DNA of 64,000 bases from Geothrix limicola (GTDB lineage: Bacteria; Acidobacteriota; Holophagae; Holophagales; Holophagaceae): NCBI RefSeq assembly GCF_030268085.1, contig NZ_BSDE01000008.1:1-64000 (forward strand). Direction: 5' to 3'. The stretch's first letter is position 1. The number at the start of each line of letters is the position of its first letter. Below, piece after piece: positions 47,175-56,543 of this stretch. A program made the translations under genes and the position numbers. The notes below the pieces were generated by a model. It saw nothing but the letters and a program-made list of their open reading frames with translations. It was not told where the DNA came from and searched no databases.

Positions 47175-47729
47175 CTACTTTCTAGAAAAGGGCTGAGAGA
47201 TGGGTATTTTCCCATCTGACTGAATGTCTATCTCGAAATTTAGCGCCTTTACTTTCTGCTCCTTTGAGGCCGGATCACGCTCCTCCGAGAATTCCAACTT
47301 GGTGATTTTCAGAACAATATTCATCCCATAGCCAGTAAAGACAACGGGGTTGTTCCGAATTGATCTCTGAAGAAAATCTTCAAGCTCGGCCTTCGTGATA
47401 ACCCCAAAACAGCCGGTCGGAGAATAGGTTCTTTCTCCATTGTTTTTGCAAAGCAGGCATCCTGGAATATACCTTCCGCCTGCTTTGTTGATTCTTAAGC
47501 ACAGAGCCCCACCAAGCTGATCATCCGGCCCATCGATTTCCCATCCGTCCAGATAGGCTTCCAGGATGTAGCGGACGATCTTCTTGTCGTTTTTTAGTCG
47601 GACCACATTTGCTCGATTGTTGCGAGAAAGAGCAAATTTTAACTCTGACGATTCCACGTTACCGTCCGCCTGAAGCACGGAAAACGCAGATAAAAACAGC
47701 AATGCGACCGTTATGTAAATTGCCCTCAT
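47175..47729 (-). CDS. Candidate periplasmic immunity protein for RHS toxin
   Basis: A 184-residue exported protein of no recognised family. It has a Sec signal (IYITVALLFLSAFSVLQA) and a mature part with two Cys pairs (CLLC and a later single Cys), Lys-rich segments, and a C-terminal beta-like stretch (NIVLKITKLEFSE). Its ATG overlaps the RHS stop codon (ATGA), so it is translationally coupled to the toxin gene and last before the terminator. Small genes directly after RHS genes commonly encode immunity proteins. An exported one would imply a toxin that acts in the periplasm, which is inference. Confidence 0.7.
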   Translation of the reverse strand: MRAIYITVALLFLSAFSVLQADGNVESSELKFALSRNNRANVVRLKNDKKIVRYILEAYLDGWEIDGPDDQLGGALCLRINKAGGRYIPGCLLCKNNGERTYSPTGCFGVITKAELEDFLQRSIRNNPVVFTGYGMNIVLKITKLEFSEERDPASKEQKVKALNFEIDIQSDGKIPISQPFSRK

Positions 47730-50700
47730 GGCTTCTCCGTTGTGCCTTGCGGACAAGGCATGCTCGACGGCACCGTGATACGGACCCATGCCGAATTGAT
47801 CTGCGACATGCCTGGAATCTCGATATACAGAGCTTGATTACCGCCATTCAATCCAGAAACCTTATTAATCTGGTAGTTCTCAAATTGACGCAGGCTCCAG
47901 CCCTTTCTCTTTCGAGTTCCTGCGTCATCGGCCCTGTCTCTGACGTCAGAGAAGAGTGATCCGAATCCGGTTGGCCCCATACCACCAGCTCCGGCTGGCC
48001 ACCAAATCTGCCCAGAAATCTGGGATGCGTATGGCGCCATTGCATCTTTGCTGTCAAAACCAAACTGCGATGGAATGACTGCGGCAGAATCAGCCGTAAT
48101 GGTGTTTCCAAAAGCGCCTGTGGCTCGACCGATGAAATTACTATTGCCTCCAATGATGGTGGCCAAGCCTTCGCAGTGCCTCACCTGCGGTGTTTGCGGC
48201 TGGCCTTCGCCTCCGCTTCCTTCCTCTTCTCCATCGTTATAAATATCTAAAATGCTGCTTCGGCATGATTCCCAGAGAACTCTTCCATCCGCATCAAAAA
48301 TTCTAGTACAAGATGTCAGTACATTCATCATCCATTTCATTCCCGATGGATCCGTTCCCATAAACGGACTCCCACCTAGGTAAGCGCGCTGATTCCAAGT
48401 GCTGGGGTCGACACCCTGATCGCTGTTCACGAAGGCGTGCCAGGCGGGGCTGTAGTAGCGGCCGCGCATGTAAATGAGACCTGAGGCATCTGTCTGGGTG
48501 TGGCCCGTGTAGCCCGTGAGGGGCGCGTAGCCCGTCTGGGAGATCATTTCCCCGTAGGGACCAAACGCCTGAGTTCCATCGACAGTGCCGTTTTGACTTG
48601 AAGCCCAGGTCCCGGCTCCTTTCGTGACTAGCCTAGGCGTCCCCAAATGATCGCTGTGAAGTTCATGCACACCATTCGCATCAATTTCAGCAATCGCCTG
48701 ATCACCCAGATAAATCACTTCCCGCCGAAGTGGGTTTCCTGCGGATCCCTTCCAATAAGCGACGTTATCAAAAATGCCTTGGGCTCCAGGATTGCTCGGC
48801 CCCACATCTAGAAAGAGATACGCCTTCGTCGCACCGGCCGGAGCGGTTCCGATGGTCGTGAGTTTGACTCGGTTCGCACTATGGGTCATGCCGGTCCAAC
48901 TCCCCCATCCGATGCCCGTCTGGGTGTCTGAATCGAATCGGATCCCGAGGATCGCGCTCCCGGGCGGTAGGCCGACGGTACGCGCAAAGCTTTCTCCGGA
49001 AATTATGTCTCCGGGGTTACATGGAATCGAACGCGCGACTTCACCCCATTGGGTCGGGACTGTGACCGTGGCGCTGGTCGCCCCTGACCAAAGATTTGGA
49101 TTTGATGAGCCTGCCGCCCAAACCACATCCTGCTCCAGAAGGAGCCCCGAACTGGTGTAGGTATTGTTAAATGTCTTCCCACTACTGGAATCGTTGACAT
49201 TCACCCGCATCCCGGAGGGCGCATACAGGTAGGCTTGCCCCCCCGAGCTCCAAGCAACGGACTTAAGGAGCCCCAGGCCGTCCCAGGCCAGCCCTAGGGC
49301 CGTTCCACTCGAGGTGGCGGTGCCAACCTGCGTAGCCTCACCACGAAGGTTTGTGTTCCAACCCGTCAAGGCACCATTGGCTTCAACGCCAGGAATCTGG
49401 TTGTTGACCATAGGATTGAAGGTGAAATTATTGAACGCCGATGGAACAGAGGCTCCATTGGGAGTCGCCAAATGAGAAATGGCATTCCCGAATCCATCGT
49501 ACGTGTGAGCCGTTTTTATCCCGAACCCATCAGCCTCCAGCAGACGCCCTGTGTTCGGGTCATTTGTGAGTTTCCATTCTCCGGCGGTCTTCAGGATGTT
49601 GGTCGCGTCGTCGTAGGTATATCCTCTGCTGTCTGGGCCACCCCCCACGTACCCAATGCTCCAATTGTTTAGCTTGGTACCTGTCAGATCGGCAGTCCAC
49701 TGGTCCTGGGCGCCTGAGGCGAATTGGATCTGATCGCGATTGCCCCAATCATCGAATTTGATGTTGTTGACGATGGACGATCCATTATTGGTGATACTCG
49801 TAATTCGCCCGAGAGCGTCGTATCCATACCCAACCACACGTCCACTCGGGTAGGTCAGGCCGGTTAAAAACCCAGTCACGGAATCATAGGCATATCCGAT
49901 GGTGGAACTGAATCCTGGCTGAGTGGTCGTTTCGGAATCCAGAACGCTACCAGGTGCATTGTAGGTGAAGGTCTGGCTAACACTCACTCCTCCCACTGTC
50001 TTGATGGCGGAAGTTAGAAGAGCCCCTGTATAGGTGTTTGATACGGAGTCCGAGCCATTGGTCATGCTGACCAAACGCCCAAAACCGTCGTAGGAGAGTG
50101 AACGCGAACGTGCATCTGCCGTTCCCGCAGCCTCCGTTACCGTAGAAGGCTGACCGAAAGCATTGAATCCCGAGAAGGTTTGAGTGTTCGTCTCTGGTTC
50201 AGTTTTAGAAGTAAGGCGACCCAATGCATCGAACGACCAGGTTCGTGTTTGCACGCGTCGAACATCCGATCCAGGATCAGTGGCGCTTACATCAACCTCA
50301 ACAGTGCGCCCAGCACCGTCAAAGTAGGCATCGGTGATGGTTCCATTGGGAGCAATTTGCTCGACGACTTGGCCGAAAGGATCGATCCGTTTACTCGAAC
50401 TGACCTGATTGGTGAGGGTGGTCGTGATGATCCGATTAAGACCATTGACAGAGTAGGAGGTCGTAGATCCACCCCCAGCGAATGGTGTCTGACTTGTGAT
50501 GCGATCCAACGAATCATAGGAGGTGGATGCATTCCTTACCGTACCAGCCGGATTGGTCTCTCGAACGCTGACCACTCGCCCATAAACGTCGTAGGTTGGC
50601 ACTTGGGTGGTGTAACTGACAGCGCCTGTAGACGTGAACCCAGTGGGTTTCTGGACAGAGCTGATCCGCCCGAAACCGTCAAACTTGGTCGTGGTGGTCA

Positions 50701-52975
50701 ATCCATTGACAGTTGAGGTAGCTGTAAGTTCGTCGGGATAGCCGTAGCTGACAGCCGGTGAGCCGGGTCGTGAAACGGAAAGCTTCCGGCCGCGATCGTC
50801 GTAGGAAGATGTTGTGGTGACTCCAGAGGGATCCGTTGATGTTGTCGGCCGGCTCGCAGAATCAAAGCCACCCGCGGTCGTATTGAGGTATTGGTTCGGA
50901 GAAACCAACGTATTGGTAAGACTCTGAGAGGACGGCGCACCAGTCGTAGCGTCATAGCCCAGAGCCAGGTAGTTCGGAGCCGTAACTTCCGTGCTCCCCT
51001 CTACGTGGTAGGCCTGCTGGGTGGAGGGTCGGCCTTGAGTATCATAGGTATAAGAGACCCCGTGTTTTCCCGTTGTCCCACCATCGAGGTAGCTCTTCTG
51101 AAGCTGCAGCAAAGGCACACCGGAGGAGGCCGGATCGAAGACATTTGCCTGAGTGACCGTGGACAATGGAGTCGTGCCGTCAGATGCGTACCTGGTGGTA
51201 GCGACATTGGTCAGTTGGTGCCCTTCCAACATGTCCCAGCGAGCTGCATAGGTATTAGTCGTCTTTGAAATCCATAAAGAATTGGAGGAGACGTTCTGCT
51301 GGGTAGCCTGCAAATTCAGGCTATTGGGATAACCCAGAGATGTTGTGATGGTGGGCGCATTGTCTTGCTGAACTGTCACGGACTGCACGCTGGAGAGGCT
51401 CGCATTCACACCCGCCCCCGTCGTGTTGTACCCATAGGTCGTGGTGCTCCAAGTCTTCCCAGAGCTATCCATCAGGGTGTCGACCTGAATGACGCCGTTC
51501 CCAGAATTCAGCGTATCCGCCGGGAAGGTGATCTGATGGTACCGATCCGGATTCGCCATCTGATTCGGATCCCACCAGCCCTCCACTTTGGCGCTGGCGG
51601 GAACACCCGCTGTTGCGAAAGTTCTCGTCCATCGCTTGTTCAGTTTGGCTCCAGAGGCATCTGTCATTTCCACACGAGAGACGCCGCGGAAAGCAATTTG
51701 GGATCCGAAGGAGGCAACCGCCACGACTGGAGCGTTGGTATAAAAGAAGCTGCTCACCAAGCCATTGGGTTGATTGATCGACATAAGTTCCGCTTGAGCT
51801 GTGTCATAAGCGAAGCCCCAAGTTCGTGTGAGCGAATCGGTCGTGCCATCAGATGGCGGGGCCCCAGGAGCTGCCGCCGCCGTTGAACCTGAACCATCCC
51901 AGCTCGGCTTTGCCAGACTGCCGTATGGCCCAATTTGAATGCTCAAAGGGCGGCAGGTGGCTCCTATCGTGCTCGGAACCACGGTCCATTCATTGGTTGC
52001 GTTGAAGGGATAACCGATTCCCGAAGGGGGAGTGTAGGCATATCCCGGATAGCCCTGAACGATCACGGATGGCGCATGCATCCCAACAAAATCTGCACGT
52101 AGGATATCTCTGGAAATCTGATTTGAGGCGTAGTCAGCCCATCGAAGCACCAAGCCTTGGGAGTGCTGATTCATGGCCGTCACTTTGGTGATCGCCGTGA
52201 TGCCGCTCGGAAGGCCCGTGGTGGATCGAAGCCACTGGAAGGTCACGTAGTGATTGAATCGGTCCGCCCATACGATGGGCACATAGGCCTGGACCGAAGT
52301 TGCGTAGGCATAGATCCTCGCCCTATTTTTATCCAGCACCACCTTGTAGTTCGAGCTGAGCGCACCGAAGCCTGAAGGCGCCAGTCCCTGCACGATAGAT
52401 TGATACGTGGTTCCCAGCCCTGATCCCGTGGTCGTGTAGGTGAGGTACGTCGCGGTCGGATCAACCATGGCAGTGCTCGTACCCACCGCAGCGAAGCCAT
52501 AAGCCTGGGGGAGGTTGAGTACTGTGCCCAGCGTCGGGTTGGCAGAAAAGGCTGTCCAATCGCGGTCTGCAATCTGAGTCCCATCTTCCAGCACCGTCAC
52601 ACCATCAACGGTCAAACCGTCGTACGTGGCCTGGTCCGAGACGTACCCGAAGTGAACGCCACCAACCATCGGGCGATCAATTACGTCAGTCACCGATTCC
52701 CGCAGCCGAGTCACTGGGTCATACACATTATGGGTTGTTGCCTTAGAGGTATAAGTCGCGTTCATGCCATAAGAAAGCCGAATGGGCACTTCCCCTGGAA
52801 CGGCTGCAATCGGCAACCCGAATGTCAGGTTCCCCTCCTGCGTAGTGACATCCCACCCAGACATATTCATGTTTACCGGTGGAGGCATCAGTAGGTTCTT
52901 GCTGATTTGAGCCTGAACCTTTGTCCAAGACAAACCAAGGCAGACAGCCAGACAGAACTTAAGCCAACGATTCAT
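47726..52975 (-). CDS. RHS-repeat polymorphic toxin with variable C-terminus
   Basis: A 1749-residue secreted giant. The Sec signal (FCLAVCLGLSW) is followed by an N-terminal region, then many YD/RHS repeats (RPTTSTDPSGVTTTSSYDDR, YDSLDRITS, YGYDALGRITSI). The conserved core follows, with HSDHLGTPRLVT, FGPYGEMI and GRYYSPAWHAFVNSDQ. The core closes at FMGTDPSGM (about residue 1546), and the 203 residues after it are unlike the repeats and match nothing I recognise; they should be the toxin. The gene is second of three on one transcript: small secreted protein, RHS, candidate immunity protein. No Type VI partner is nearby; delivery by Sec and the cell envelope is more likely. Confidence 0.9.
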   Translation of the reverse strand: MNRWLKFCLAVCLGLSWTKVQAQISKNLLMPPPVNMNMSGWDVTTQEGNLTFGLPIAAVPGEVPIRLSYGMNATYTSKATTHNVYDPVTRLRESVTDVIDRPMVGGVHFGYVSDQATYDGLTVDGVTVLEDGTQIADRDWTAFSANPTLGTVLNLPQAYGFAAVGTSTAMVDPTATYLTYTTTGSGLGTTYQSIVQGLAPSGFGALSSNYKVVLDKNRARIYAYATSVQAYVPIVWADRFNHYVTFQWLRSTTGLPSGITAITKVTAMNQHSQGLVLRWADYASNQISRDILRADFVGMHAPSVIVQGYPGYAYTPPSGIGYPFNATNEWTVVPSTIGATCRPLSIQIGPYGSLAKPSWDGSGSTAAAAPGAPPSDGTTDSLTRTWGFAYDTAQAELMSINQPNGLVSSFFYTNAPVVAVASFGSQIAFRGVSRVEMTDASGAKLNKRWTRTFATAGVPASAKVEGWWDPNQMANPDRYHQITFPADTLNSGNGVIQVDTLMDSSGKTWSTTTYGYNTTGAGVNASLSSVQSVTVQQDNAPTITTSLGYPNSLNLQATQQNVSSNSLWISKTTNTYAARWDMLEGHQLTNVATTRYASDGTTPLSTVTQANVFDPASSGVPLLQLQKSYLDGGTTGKHGVSYTYDTQGRPSTQQAYHVEGSTEVTAPNYLALGYDATTGAPSSQSLTNTLVSPNQYLNTTAGGFDSASRPTTSTDPSGVTTTSSYDDRGRKLSVSRPGSPAVSYGYPDELTATSTVNGLTTTTKFDGFGRISSVQKPTGFTSTGAVSYTTQVPTYDVYGRVVSVRETNPAGTVRNASTSYDSLDRITSQTPFAGGGSTTSYSVNGLNRIITTTLTNQVSSSKRIDPFGQVVEQIAPNGTITDAYFDGAGRTVEVDVSATDPGSDVRRVQTRTWSFDALGRLTSKTEPETNTQTFSGFNAFGQPSTVTEAAGTADARSRSLSYDGFGRLVSMTNGSDSVSNTYTGALLTSAIKTVGGVSVSQTFTYNAPGSVLDSETTTQPGFSSTIGYAYDSVTGFLTGLTYPSGRVVGYGYDALGRITSITNNGSSIVNNIKFDDWGNRDQIQFASGAQDQWTADLTGTKLNNWSIGYVGGGPDSRGYTYDDATNILKTAGEWKLTNDPNTGRLLEADGFGIKTAHTYDGFGNAISHLATPNGASVPSAFNNFTFNPMVNNQIPGVEANGALTGWNTNLRGEATQVGTATSSGTALGLAWDGLGLLKSVAWSSGGQAYLYAPSGMRVNVNDSSSGKTFNNTYTSSGLLLEQDVVWAAGSSNPNLWSGATSATVTVPTQWGEVARSIPCNPGDIISGESFARTVGLPPGSAILGIRFDSDTQTGIGWGSWTGMTHSANRVKLTTIGTAPAGATKAYLFLDVGPSNPGAQGIFDNVAYWKGSAGNPLRREVIYLGDQAIAEIDANGVHELHSDHLGTPRLVTKGAGTWASSQNGTVDGTQAFGPYGEMISQTGYAPLTGYTGHTQTDASGLIYMRGRYYSPAWHAFVNSDQGVDPSTWNQRAYLGGSPFMGTDPSGMKWMMNVLTSCTRIFDADGRVLWESCRSSILDIYNDGEEEGSGGEGQPQTPQVRHCEGLATIIGGNSNFIGRATGAFGNTITADSAAVIPSQFGFDSKDAMAPYASQISGQIWWPAGAGGMGPTGFGSLFSDVRDRADDAGTRKRKGWSLRQFENYQINKVSGLNGGNQALYIEIPGMSQINSAWVRITVPSSMPCPQGTTEKP

Positions 52976-53599: not shown

Positions 53600-53663
53600 C
53601 GCATGCATGCGATTTACAATTTTCATTCAGTTTGCCGAAATGGACGTCCTTGAGGTCACCTCA
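53600..53663 (+). promoter_or_regulatory. Two palindromes upstream of HTH gene
   Basis: A perfect 12-nt palindrome CGCATGCATGCG (53600-53611) and a 6-1-6 inverted repeat TGAGGT-C-ACCTCA (53651-53663) lie in the AT-rich gap between the RHS operon and the divergent HTH gene. The second ends 12 nt before the start codon. They are candidate operators for the HTH protein, which could also control the RHS operon. Confidence 0.45.
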
Positions 53664-53675
53664 CGTGGAGCCGCC

Positions 53676-54131
53676 ATGCCCAACATTGCCTCACTCTTGA
53701 AATCCGAAATTCTCCGGCTCGCCCGGAAAGAAGTCCGCGCAGAGGTTGAATCACTCAAGAAAGCCTCAGCAGCCTACCGATCCGAGATTAGTCAGCTGAA
53801 GCACAGAGTAGAAACACTCGAGAAGCAACTATCCCGAGCAGAGAAGAAATCTATGAAAGCCAGGGAAACATCGGAAACCCCGGAAACGACCACAAAGATT
53901 CGATTCAGCGCAAAGCGCTTTGCAGCTCTGCGGAAGAAGTTAGGGCTCAGCGCCGCCGATATGGGACTGCTTATCGGTGTTTCAGGCCAGACCATCTACC
54001 ACTGGGAGTCCGAGAAGAGCCGCCCAAGGCAGGCACAGCTGGAGGCGATTGCAGCACTCCGGGGGATCGGGAAGCGTGAGGTAAAGAGGCGCCTCGAGGC
54101 AACCGTGGACCAGCCGAACCTAGAGGGCTGA
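53676..54131 (+). CDS. Coiled-coil and HTH (XRE-type) DNA-binding protein
   Basis: A 151-residue protein. ATG at 53676 is chosen because GTGGAG lies 6 nt upstream and the protein then begins with its conserved-looking helix (MPNIASLLKSEILRLARKE). A long coiled coil (about residues 10-60: VESLKKASAA, ISQLKHRVETLEKQL) is followed by a basic linker and a C-terminal helix-turn-helix (RFAALRKKLGLSAADMGLL, SGQTIYHWESEKSRP). This architecture resembles XRE-like regulators with added dimerisation helices. It is divergent from the RHS operon and near the reverse transcriptase. Confidence 0.85.
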   Translation: MPNIASLLKSEILRLARKEVRAEVESLKKASAAYRSEISQLKHRVETLEKQLSRAEKKSMKARETSETPETTTKIRFSAKRFAALRKKLGLSAADMGLLIGVSGQTIYHWESEKSRPRQAQLEAIAALRGIGKREVKRRLEATVDQPNLEG

Positions 54132-54281
54132 ACCGATGGTTTTAATTGATCTCGGTAATTCGGTCATGTCGGTTTCCCTTTTCCCTTTACCCTCGTTACC
54201 CAGAAACCAATGATTAAAATCAAGGTGTGACTTGATCCATGGTCACGCTTCAGGTTCTTCATTCGGGGAAGACTCCTCAGG

Positions 54282-54330
54282 CGAGGAAGCGAGAAGTTGA
54301 GAGAGAGCCTAAGGCAACGCAGGCGGGGTC
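54282..54330. repeat. 49-nt direct repeat, copy downstream of reverse transcriptase
   Basis: Matches 55958-56006 without gaps at 40 of 49 positions by hand count. It lies just beyond the stop codon of the reverse transcriptase. It carries only one arm of the GC stem seen in the other copy (GCAGGCG without a matching partner), so it looks like half of the structure. Confidence 0.75.
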
Positions 54331-54346
54331 GGATTTGAGCGGAGGG

Positions 54347-55885
54347 TCAGCTACCCTTTACCCACTTTGCAAGCGCTTTATCAAATGGACGAATAAATGA
54401 TTGACGAGCAATGAAGTATTTTTTCTCGTCTCTGGGGAGGCCGGCAATAGTGAATAAGTACGCACGCTGTTGCCATGGGTCCATCGTTGGGAACGATTCC
54501 TTCAGCTCCCTGGCCCAATCGAAGGCCTTGTTTACTTTCGCTGCAAGGATAATTTCGCGTCTGACAATAGCATCGCTTTGCTGGAATGCACCATGCAGCT
54601 GCGCAAAATGGTTGATGTATTCATTTCTAGTAAAAAGGCTCAGGATCAGTAGACGGAAATATTCACTTGATTGAATCTCAGGCTTACGAATAAATTCTAG
54701 AAGCCTGCCACCAATGCTTTTCCATATGTCCGGCGTAATAGATTGAATGGAAGCAAGATAAAAACAAATATTAGCAAAACAGGGCCCAAGGGCATCAAGA
54801 TTATCGAGTGAGATCTCGATTGCGCCGGGATGGCCTATTTGTGCCAATCTTCGATAAAACCAACGTAATCGTATATAGTCGATAGATTCCTGCTGGATGT
54901 AATCATTAATCACATTGCATATGGATGCATCAGAGATCGAAGCCCAGTCATCGGGTGTTATTTGAGCATATGAAATCGTTTTGTATGGGTCTCCACCTGT
55001 ATATTTTTTAATCAAAGCAAGAAGCGTTTTTTCATCGGAATTGATAGGACGATCCTCAATCATCTGCAAACAAAGCTTTTGAAATTCAGATGGATCATAG
55101 AATTTTGTCTTGTGTCTTTGCAACATCAATCGTTGTTGTTTGTCGAGAACAGTTGCAACTGTGGCGAGAGCTGACTTGCCCTCCTGCAATGACTCGCAAA
55201 ATATCAGGATGTCATCCGCATACCGAATGAAGTTCAATCCTGCTGCTTGAAGACTATTGTCTACGGGAATCAGCGTCGCTTCCGCGATTAGGTGAATTGG
55301 ATGCGGACCGACGGGCACCCCACGAGAAACACCTGCCGTAGTTGATTCCAATAATGAAATGAGCCACTTGACCGCCTGATTTGGAAGGCCCGCTGCAAAT
55401 AATTGGTTTTCAACTGTATGGTGGTAGACCTGATTATAAAAATCAGCAATATCGCAATAGAGAACGTGCCCTGAACGCTTGGCAAGCAGGCCGGCCCTTG
55501 TCCAAAACTGATTCCACGCTGTTTTGCTGCCATATAGACCATCTTCTAGTGTCGGTTGAAATCTATAGCTAAATATTTTATCATTTGTCAATCGCCTGCT
55601 TTCGATCAAAGAACCGTACTCGTAAACAAGAGCGGATAGGATAATCGAATCCTGTGGATCAAGTTGTGTTGCCTGTCTGTATGAAATATCGTCTTTTGGA
55701 ACAATGAAGCGACGACAACTGCCAGGTTGAAATGTGCTGAGGTCAACTCCCGTCAATTGGCTAACGAAAGCAGATTTGTCGGCAGAAATGGCTTCGACCT
55801 CTAGGATTTTTGGGAATAGATCCCCATCAGAATGCAGTTGGAGGAAGTCTATAGCCCATTCAAGAGATGTTGCGCGTAGTGTCAT
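54347..55885 (-). CDS. Reverse transcriptase of the defence/Abi (DRT-like) kind
   Basis: A 512-residue RNA-directed DNA polymerase. Motifs in order are SCRRFIVPKDDISYRQATQL, the first catalytic Asp in CDIADFYNQVYHH, GVPVGPHPIHLIAE, the active-site YADD in FIRYADDILIFCE (about residue 220), and QRHKTKFYDP. The C-terminal 230 residues are alpha-helical with no group II intron maturase, endonuclease or retron VTG motif, which points to the unknown-group/Abi reverse transcriptases used in phage defence. ATG at 55885 is preferred over a GTG seven codons upstream that lies in the attC-like site. It is AT-richer than the chromosome. Exact DRT class is not assigned. Confidence 0.87.
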   Translation of the reverse strand: MTLRATSLEWAIDFLQLHSDGDLFPKILEVEAISADKSAFVSQLTGVDLSTFQPGSCRRFIVPKDDISYRQATQLDPQDSIILSALVYEYGSLIESRRLTNDKIFSYRFQPTLEDGLYGSKTAWNQFWTRAGLLAKRSGHVLYCDIADFYNQVYHHTVENQLFAAGLPNQAVKWLISLLESTTAGVSRGVPVGPHPIHLIAEATLIPVDNSLQAAGLNFIRYADDILIFCESLQEGKSALATVATVLDKQQRLMLQRHKTKFYDPSEFQKLCLQMIEDRPINSDEKTLLALIKKYTGGDPYKTISYAQITPDDWASISDASICNVINDYIQQESIDYIRLRWFYRRLAQIGHPGAIEISLDNLDALGPCFANICFYLASIQSITPDIWKSIGGRLLEFIRKPEIQSSEYFRLLILSLFTRNEYINHFAQLHGAFQQSDAIVRREIILAAKVNKAFDWARELKESFPTMDPWQQRAYLFTIAGLPRDEKKYFIARQSFIRPFDKALAKWVKGS

Positions 55886-55904
55886 AGCGCTGCTCGCATC
55901 GGGC

Positions 55905-56030
55905 ACCTAACGAGAGAAGCTAACCAGCCCCGCCTGCACCGAGGTGATGAACGAAGCCGAGGTAGCGAAAGGTTGAGAGAGATCGGAAGACAATGCAGGC
56001 GAGGTCTAAGTAAGGTGCGTTCATCACCTC
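55905..56030 (-). repeat. attC-like structured element upstream of reverse transcriptase
   Basis: On the minus strand it runs from the stop of the preceding small gene to about 20 nt before the reverse transcriptase ATG. GTTAGGT (55911-55905) fits the integron R' consensus GTTRRRY, ACCTTAC at 56016-56010 is a 6/7 match to the paired RYYYAAC box, and CGCCTGCA/TGCAGGCG (55931-55938 with 55994-56001) makes a perfect inner stem, as in attC hairpins of about 110 nt. An alternative, mutually exclusive 13-bp pairing joins 55941-55953 and 56018-56030. It holds the second copy of the 49-nt repeat (55958-56006). An RNA structure used by the reverse transcriptase is the alternative. Confidence 0.5.
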
Positions 56031-56460
56031 AAACCTCGAAGAAGAAGCATTTGTGTGTTTCGCAGTACCACTGCTTGTAATATTTGGCTTTCGACCGTGT
56101 GTATTTGGGAATCCACCACACTTTGATTGTTGTGGCAATGAGACCAAAAAACACCCCAATGAGTAATGGCTGCCAGTCCAGGAGGATATCGACTAGTTTC
56201 GCCAAATGGTTCGCCACGAACCATTGATGAATACTGAAGAAGTTGCCCCTGAGCAGAGTAGGTACAATCACGAGGATAGCCGATAAAATTGCCGCAAGAA
56301 TGAACCAAAACCAAGGACTGGCTGGCGGTTCATGTTTTCTGGATTCCTTGGTGTGATAGATGTTTCCTTTTTCGTCTTTTCGCATTCCTTTTTTCCAAAG
56401 ATTAGAAGACTTCATTGCTTCGCACATCTCACCAGTAGTAGCTTGCGGACATATCGCCAT
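56029..56460 (-). CDS. Small two-helix membrane protein of unknown function
   Basis: A 143-residue protein. ATG at 56460 is chosen because GGAGG lies 6 nt upstream; an ATG seven codons earlier lacks a site. A polar N-terminal part with two Cys (ICPQATTGEMC) is followed by two hydrophobic segments (FWFILAAILSAILVIVPTLL and LLIGVFFGLIATTIKVWW) and a short basic/Cys tail (YCETHKCFFFEV). No family is recognised. The stop codon abuts the attC-like element, as in an integron cassette. Confidence 0.65.
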   Translation of the reverse strand: MAICPQATTGEMCEAMKSSNLWKKGMRKDEKGNIYHTKESRKHEPPASPWFWFILAAILSAILVIVPTLLRGNFFSIHQWFVANHLAKLVDILLDWQPLLIGVFFGLIATTIKVWWIPKYTRSKAKYYKQWYCETHKCFFFEV

Positions 56461-56543
56461 AAATCCTCCGTAATCGATCACTCAAACATCTATCCGAGTG
56501 GTATTTAACAATTGAATTCATCGCATCACTATCTATTTATGAT

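Follow-up and report, generated by a model that had tools for sequence, protein, structure and literature searches.

A DRT8-type reverse transcriptase gene as the probable cargo of a stranded integron cassette with decayed attC sites in Geothrix limicola

The locus examined here raises the question of why a lone reverse transcriptase (RT) gene should lie between two copies of the same repeat. The first-pass annotation had proposed either a defence gene moved as an integron cassette, with no integrase nearby, or a structured RNA used by the enzyme; this two-way interpretation is partly supported, the cassette alternative being right and the RNA alternative unsupported. We conclude that the RT is very probably the gene of a stranded integron cassette, with decayed attC sites and away from the main array. 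The window, that is, the whole 64,000-nt stretch analysed, is positions 1-64000 of contig C8 (173.7 kb) of the genome (4.23 Mb, 20 contigs).

The RT gene (54347..55885, minus strand) is an intact ORF of 512 aa with a YADD motif and a TGA stop at 54349-54347. It has a Pfam RVT_1 match, and the PADLOC Drt8 profile is matched from position 2 to 490 of 493 with 523 bits (E 2.3e-157), the next family reaching 134 bits. On this full-length family match the protein is assigned to DRT8, and it is a probable virus-defence gene. Both the ATG start and the end agree with those of six relatives at 62-73% identity, from Piscinibacter, Rhodanobacter, Limnobacter, Citrobacter, a Planctomycetes MAG and Vibrio mimicus. 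A GTG at 55906 was considered as the start and rejected, as translation would begin within an attC core box and the relatives start at the ATG. The closest relatives are proteobacterial, homologues on Rhizobium plasmids are 59% identical, and DRT8 is rare in the phylum of the host (4/396 genomes). The GC content of the gene is 43.9%, as compared with 63.2% for the window, and differences from the closest relatives are concentrated at third codon positions (63%, against 25% and 12%). Rarity, low GC and third-position differences together fit a transferred gene that has been kept under selection. A search for a promoter gave nothing better than chance, and no DRT8 was found in the phage records and viral contigs searched. 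Another genome of the genus (G029, locus L067) encodes a further DRT8-like RT of greater divergence (412 bits; 26% identity to the one in the window), and the examined stretch of its flanks held no attC remnants.

The repeat itself is as first described. It is gapless over 49 nt (54282-54330 and 55958-56006), recomputation again giving 40/49 identical positions, and stretched to 52 nt it retains 81% identity; the RT is the sole long minus-strand gene between the copies. When the rest of the genome was searched for an integrase and for further copies, as had been suggested, both were found: the integrase on contig C4, in keeping with a cassette whose integrase is not nearby, and about 90 copies on eight other contigs. 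A search with the upstream copy (attC1) gave at least 41 matches including itself, the others being 83-88% identical, and the examined contigs (C4, C9 and C12-C17) carry 90 copies besides those of the window, with one short gene between each. All copies within a contig are on one strand, 79 of 82 cassette ORFs are on the array strand, and the median gap is 523 nt. The integron integrase IntI, at C4:18756, scores 463.8 bits (cut-off 265); its gene looks intact and is divergent from the adjacent array.

The family consensus, R'' GCCTAAC ... R' GTTAGGC, fits the RYYYAAC / GTTRRRY core boxes. Bottom strands of intact array copies fold into an R stem, an unpaired central spacer, an L stem with three extrahelical bases and a long terminal structure, and thus show the canonical attC fold of R and L stems with extrahelical bases on one arm. 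The L stem covaries among three states (GCTCAAG/CTTAGC, GCTCAAC/GTTAGC and GCTGCAC/GTGAGC), with 97.3% of cells paired and 23 cells changed on both sides, compared with 10.4 in shuffles; none of 500 shuffles reached the score, and slid controls were far lower. By these features the element is classed as the attC site of a large chromosomal integron, with an intI gene and a homogeneous attC array. The same attC family is found in 44/47 genomes of the genus, and an integrase above the cut-off in 29/47.

This integron comprises at least 90 cassettes, split by the assembly across the eight contigs C4, C9 and C12-C17 (L017, L019 and L023-L028). Most of its cassette proteins lack a Pfam match, the single matches including a BrnT toxin, a glyoxalase/bleomycin-resistance-like protein and a TfoX C-terminal domain. 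In four relatives with one- or two-contig genomes (G007, G014, G017 and G030), copies of the attC family are spread over several sites of one chromosome, separated by hundreds of kb, for example near 0.70, 1.98, 2.17 and 2.60 Mb in G014, which has one integrase, at 0.71 Mb. Dispersed arrays therefore seem usual in the genus.

Taxon-specific attC models are available for several phyla (PMC8352920); the profile used here was built from the array copies of this genome. A covariance model, a check that had also been proposed, matches both window copies, and both prove to be damaged. The upstream site, attC1 (55905..56025, minus strand), matches the profile at 56011-55903(-) over positions 16-124 (E ~1e-27) and the covariance model at 55905-56025(-) with 93.7 bits. 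It keeps R' (GTTAGGT, 55911-55905), L' and the central part, its R''/L'' arm having been replaced. The downstream site, attC2 (54278..54352, minus strand), is the left half of an attC, with a degenerate R'' and neither L' nor R'. It matches the profile at 54349-54278(-) over positions 2-73 (E ~6e-13), and the covariance model at 54205-54352(-) with 27.2 bits, real homology being confined to the first half. The view of the downstream copy as half a structure is thus borne out, the homology stopping near the middle of the site; the damage to the upstream copy goes beyond that remark.

The upstream copy had been read as a 112-nt attC-like structure closed by GTTAGGT and ACCTTAC (56016-56010, minus strand). 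The boxes and the end-to-end length of 112 nt hold, but the ancestral R'' box was not ACCTTAC. Intact copies have R'' (GCCTAAC) at a distance of 15 nt from a conserved GACC that follows it; the corresponding distance for ACCTTAC is 3 nt, which sets it 12 nt away from where R'' originally stood, within the segment that replaces the R''/L'' arm. This segment carries an inverted copy of part of the attC body, giving a perfect 13-nt inverted repeat with its left arm GAGGTGATGAACG where the R'' arm was lost (56018..56030, minus strand) and its right arm CGTTCATCACCTC within the conserved attC body (55941..55953, minus strand); such a repeat occurs in ~1% of random 135-nt stretches. The bottom strand of attC1 misfolds, pairing around the 13-nt stem and not through the R and L stems. 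In attC2, the R'' homologue is AGCTGAC as against GCCTAAC in the family, the stop codon of the RT falls exactly there, and no stable fold is formed. Neither copy is a complete site, and both are attC remnants. Elsewhere on the 173.7-kb contig the profile and the covariance model gave no attC, and the RT thus lies away from the array. A putative third remnant at 57068-57039 was dropped, as its 23/35 matches compare with 22 reached by chance sites in the window.

The RT has the geometry of a cassette gene with respect to these remnants. The cleavage point G^TTAGGT is 25 nt before the ATG, which, as noted in the first-pass annotation, stands close behind the box (55885, 19 nt past it); the TGA stop lies in the R'' homologue of attC2, and gene and sites share one orientation. 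A cassette preceding attC1 can also be inferred. The 144-aa ORF that ends at the left edge of attC1 (56029..56463, minus strand, 44% GC) is probably its gene, judging by position, strand and GC content; a search of the 46 other genomes of the genus gave no homologue, so its cassette nature is deduced from these features.

With both attC sites broken and the gene off the array, the structure points to a stranded cassette that has probably been immobilised. In the sequence of events that we propose, IntI would have captured a promoterless DRT8 cassette, which would have reached contig C8 either through a secondary (attG-type) site or as part of a small array that subsequently became separated from the main array; once both attC sites had decayed, excision would have ceased, fixing the gene with its ORF still intact. 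Cassette insertion at attG sites, which are neither attC nor attI, has been reported by Loot et al. 2024, as cited in PMC11023631 and mentioned in PMC12444791. No clean empty-site counterpart of the insertion was found in the genus; homologues of the window flanks are scattered there and limited to the HTH gene and the genes on the right.

Clusters of attC sites lacking a nearby integrase (CALINs) are common away from the integrase in Xanthomonas (PMC12444791), and the present locus likewise is an attC-bearing cassette locus far from an intI gene that lies elsewhere in the genome. The usual threshold for a CALIN is two attC sites; here there are two remnants, both incomplete, and no integrase was seen in the part of the contig scanned by attC proximity. 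It is very unlikely that the locus is a small functional CALIN, its cassette still open to excision in trans by the C4 integrase. Such mobilisation of CALINs is stated to occur (PMC12444791), and the genome does offer an intact-looking integrase gene and an intact R' in attC1. However, excision requires both sites, and the missing L'/R' of attC2, together with the missing R''/L'' and the misfolding of attC1, argue against it.

Other genomes repeat the stranded-cassette arrangement. In Rhodanobacter sp. C05, the first base of TTAGGCGCTCT precedes the DRT8 start by 24 nt; the gene runs into AGAGCGCCTAA, the inverted copy of that sequence, and has its stop codon within GCCTAAC. It is followed by a degenerate attC (4-nt spacer deletion, GTTGGAC core) of that genome's own family, of which the examined stretches hold ~50 copies; the integrase of this genome scores 495 bits. 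Here too DRT8 stands alone, since its own attC is the one match on that contig out of the 40 scored, and the locus is a decayed cassette. The empty site, in the form of the joined flanks, gave no match across the junction in 45 genomes of its genus. In Vibrio mimicus, DRT8 lies between GTTATATTTTT and AAAAATATAACAAACG, the latter resembling the start of the VCR sites ~3-6 kb downstream, a likeness that ends after a few bases; inverted repeats of at least 11 nt at such distances arise in 0.28% of random placements. This DRT8 is probably also a decayed cassette. All three cassette-type loci (window, Rhodanobacter and V. mimicus), whose attC families differ, have a leader no longer than 25 nt and a stop codon that overlaps the R'' box.

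No attC-type ends were seen at the other DRT8 loci examined, and cassette carriage is therefore not general among DRT8 genes. A generic detector of attC sites, based on R boxes and an L stem, recovers 21/25 array sites of L017 and likewise gave nothing beside other DRT8 genes; as it also misses the degenerate Rhodanobacter site, its silence means little. In V. mimicus CAIM 602 (L039, 2530-10057), DRT8 stands behind two genes, which we take from their sequences to resemble a DUF4297-HerA pair, and before what is presumably, again as read from its sequence, a tyrosine integrase gene, adjoining the VCR array.

In V. mimicus, DRT8 and what is probably the gene of a site-specific integrase occupy one segment beside the integron array, and most DRT8 loci show no attC; DRT8 might instead have been delivered to the window by another mobile element (an island, transposon or phage remnant) that landed beside or inside an attC remnant. 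We consider this very unlikely, as the two remnants adjoin the RT, one on each side, share one orientation and are spaced as in a cassette, the stop lies inside the R'' homologue, and the same geometry is found again in Rhodanobacter.

Does the enzyme need an RNA partner from its flanks? Reviews describe the mechanism of DRT8 as unresolved, DRT2/3/9 as ncRNA-containing and DRT4/6 as single-gene systems (PMC13213688, PMC13314766). In the predicted structure of the RT (mean pLDDT 82), the top Foldseek matches and the whole-length alignments are to DRT6, DRT4/UG15, AbiK, AbiA and Abi-P2. The whole-length architecture of DRT4, DRT6 and AbiK, an RT domain followed by a C-terminal helical domain, is present, with 445-454 residues aligned at an rmsd of 4.6-4.9, whereas the match to DRT9 and DRT2 is confined to the RT domain. 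The Z order of VIA-align is led by group II intron and DGR RT domains because the RT domain alone is aligned there; our comparison therefore used whole-length matches. DRT8 shares whole-length fold and single-gene organisation with DRT4, DRT6, AbiK and Abi-P2; the likeness is one of predicted fold, at 12-16% identity. A DRT4/AbiK-like activity of DRT8 may be inferred from this model. During infection the enzyme would make DNA with no dedicated RNA template, as do DRT4, DRT6 and AbiK, and would stop phage growth by abortive infection.

The conserved structured RNA beside the RT that marks ncRNA-dependent systems of the DRT2/DRT3/DRT9 type was not seen in relatives: the flanks of eight DRT8 loci had no sequence in common at E 0.01, and the repeat element had no match in Rfam. 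Short leaders (25 nt or less), stops within the R'' box and differing attC families make a dedicated RNA outside the ORF unlikely. Thus, with the cassette ends fixed at three loci with different attC families, DRT8 is implied to be a one-gene system that can travel as a cassette without room for a flanking ncRNA. That the repeat is an RNA template or scaffold for DRT8 as in DRT2, DRT3 and DRT9, its attC likeness being coincidental or an attC having been co-opted, is highly improbable: the upstream copy does fold, directly before a gene whose mechanism is open (PMC13314766), but ~90 copies adjoin unrelated genes, the conserved fold is lost in attC1, and the absence of an Rfam match, the lack of a common DRT8 flank, the tight cassette ends and the RT-domain-only match to DRT9 and DRT2 all speak against it.

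That integrons store antiphage genes is established for Vibrio and for mobile integrons (PMC12409362; cited in PMC12444791), and such storage in sedentary chromosomal integrons is attributed to Darracq et al. 2025, Getz et al. 2025 and Kieffer et al. 2025 where these are cited in PMC12409362 and PMC12444791. The locus resembles such stores in that a predicted defence gene, a small one-gene system, is the cassette of a large chromosomal integron; it differs in that the gene is a DRT8 outside the array with both attC sites broken. Nor is the array itself a rich defence store, as 1/79 of its cassettes matches a known defence family in PADLOC (PD-T7-4, 7e-8). We found no mention of integron carriage of DRT8 in the literature covered, which leaves out the original DRT survey (10.1093/nar/gkac467). 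What is new here is a putative DRT8 cassette neither of whose sites is intact, and the fact that this state recurs. An RT-based defence gene would thereby be added to the known cargo of chromosomal integrons, in a cassette probably fixed through losing its own recombination sites, and the one-gene reading is a directly testable statement on DRT8.

More tentatively, and with considerable doubt, DRT8 may have been captured repeatedly by unrelated integrons and repeatedly stranded with decayed attC sites, in this genome, in Rhodanobacter C05 and probably in V. mimicus, because expressed copies that cannot be excised are kept. If true, integrons would seed permanent defence genes, beyond storing shuffled ones.

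As to the surroundings of the RT, PADLOC gave nothing beyond a generic HTH when the adjoining ORFs were searched for partner effectors. An ORF of 1749 aa at 47726-52975 (minus strand), presumably an RHS/YD-repeat protein as judged by reading its sequence, is followed by a short ORF. The HTH gene at 53607-54131 (plus strand) converges on the RT, and related DNA is found in 36/47 genomes of the genus, frequently with two or more copies per genome. In genome G018, a shortened attC (L055, 58-125) has lost its middle and kept both R boxes; behind it come a cassette, a complete attC site and, in the opposite orientation, an HTH gene related to that of the window.
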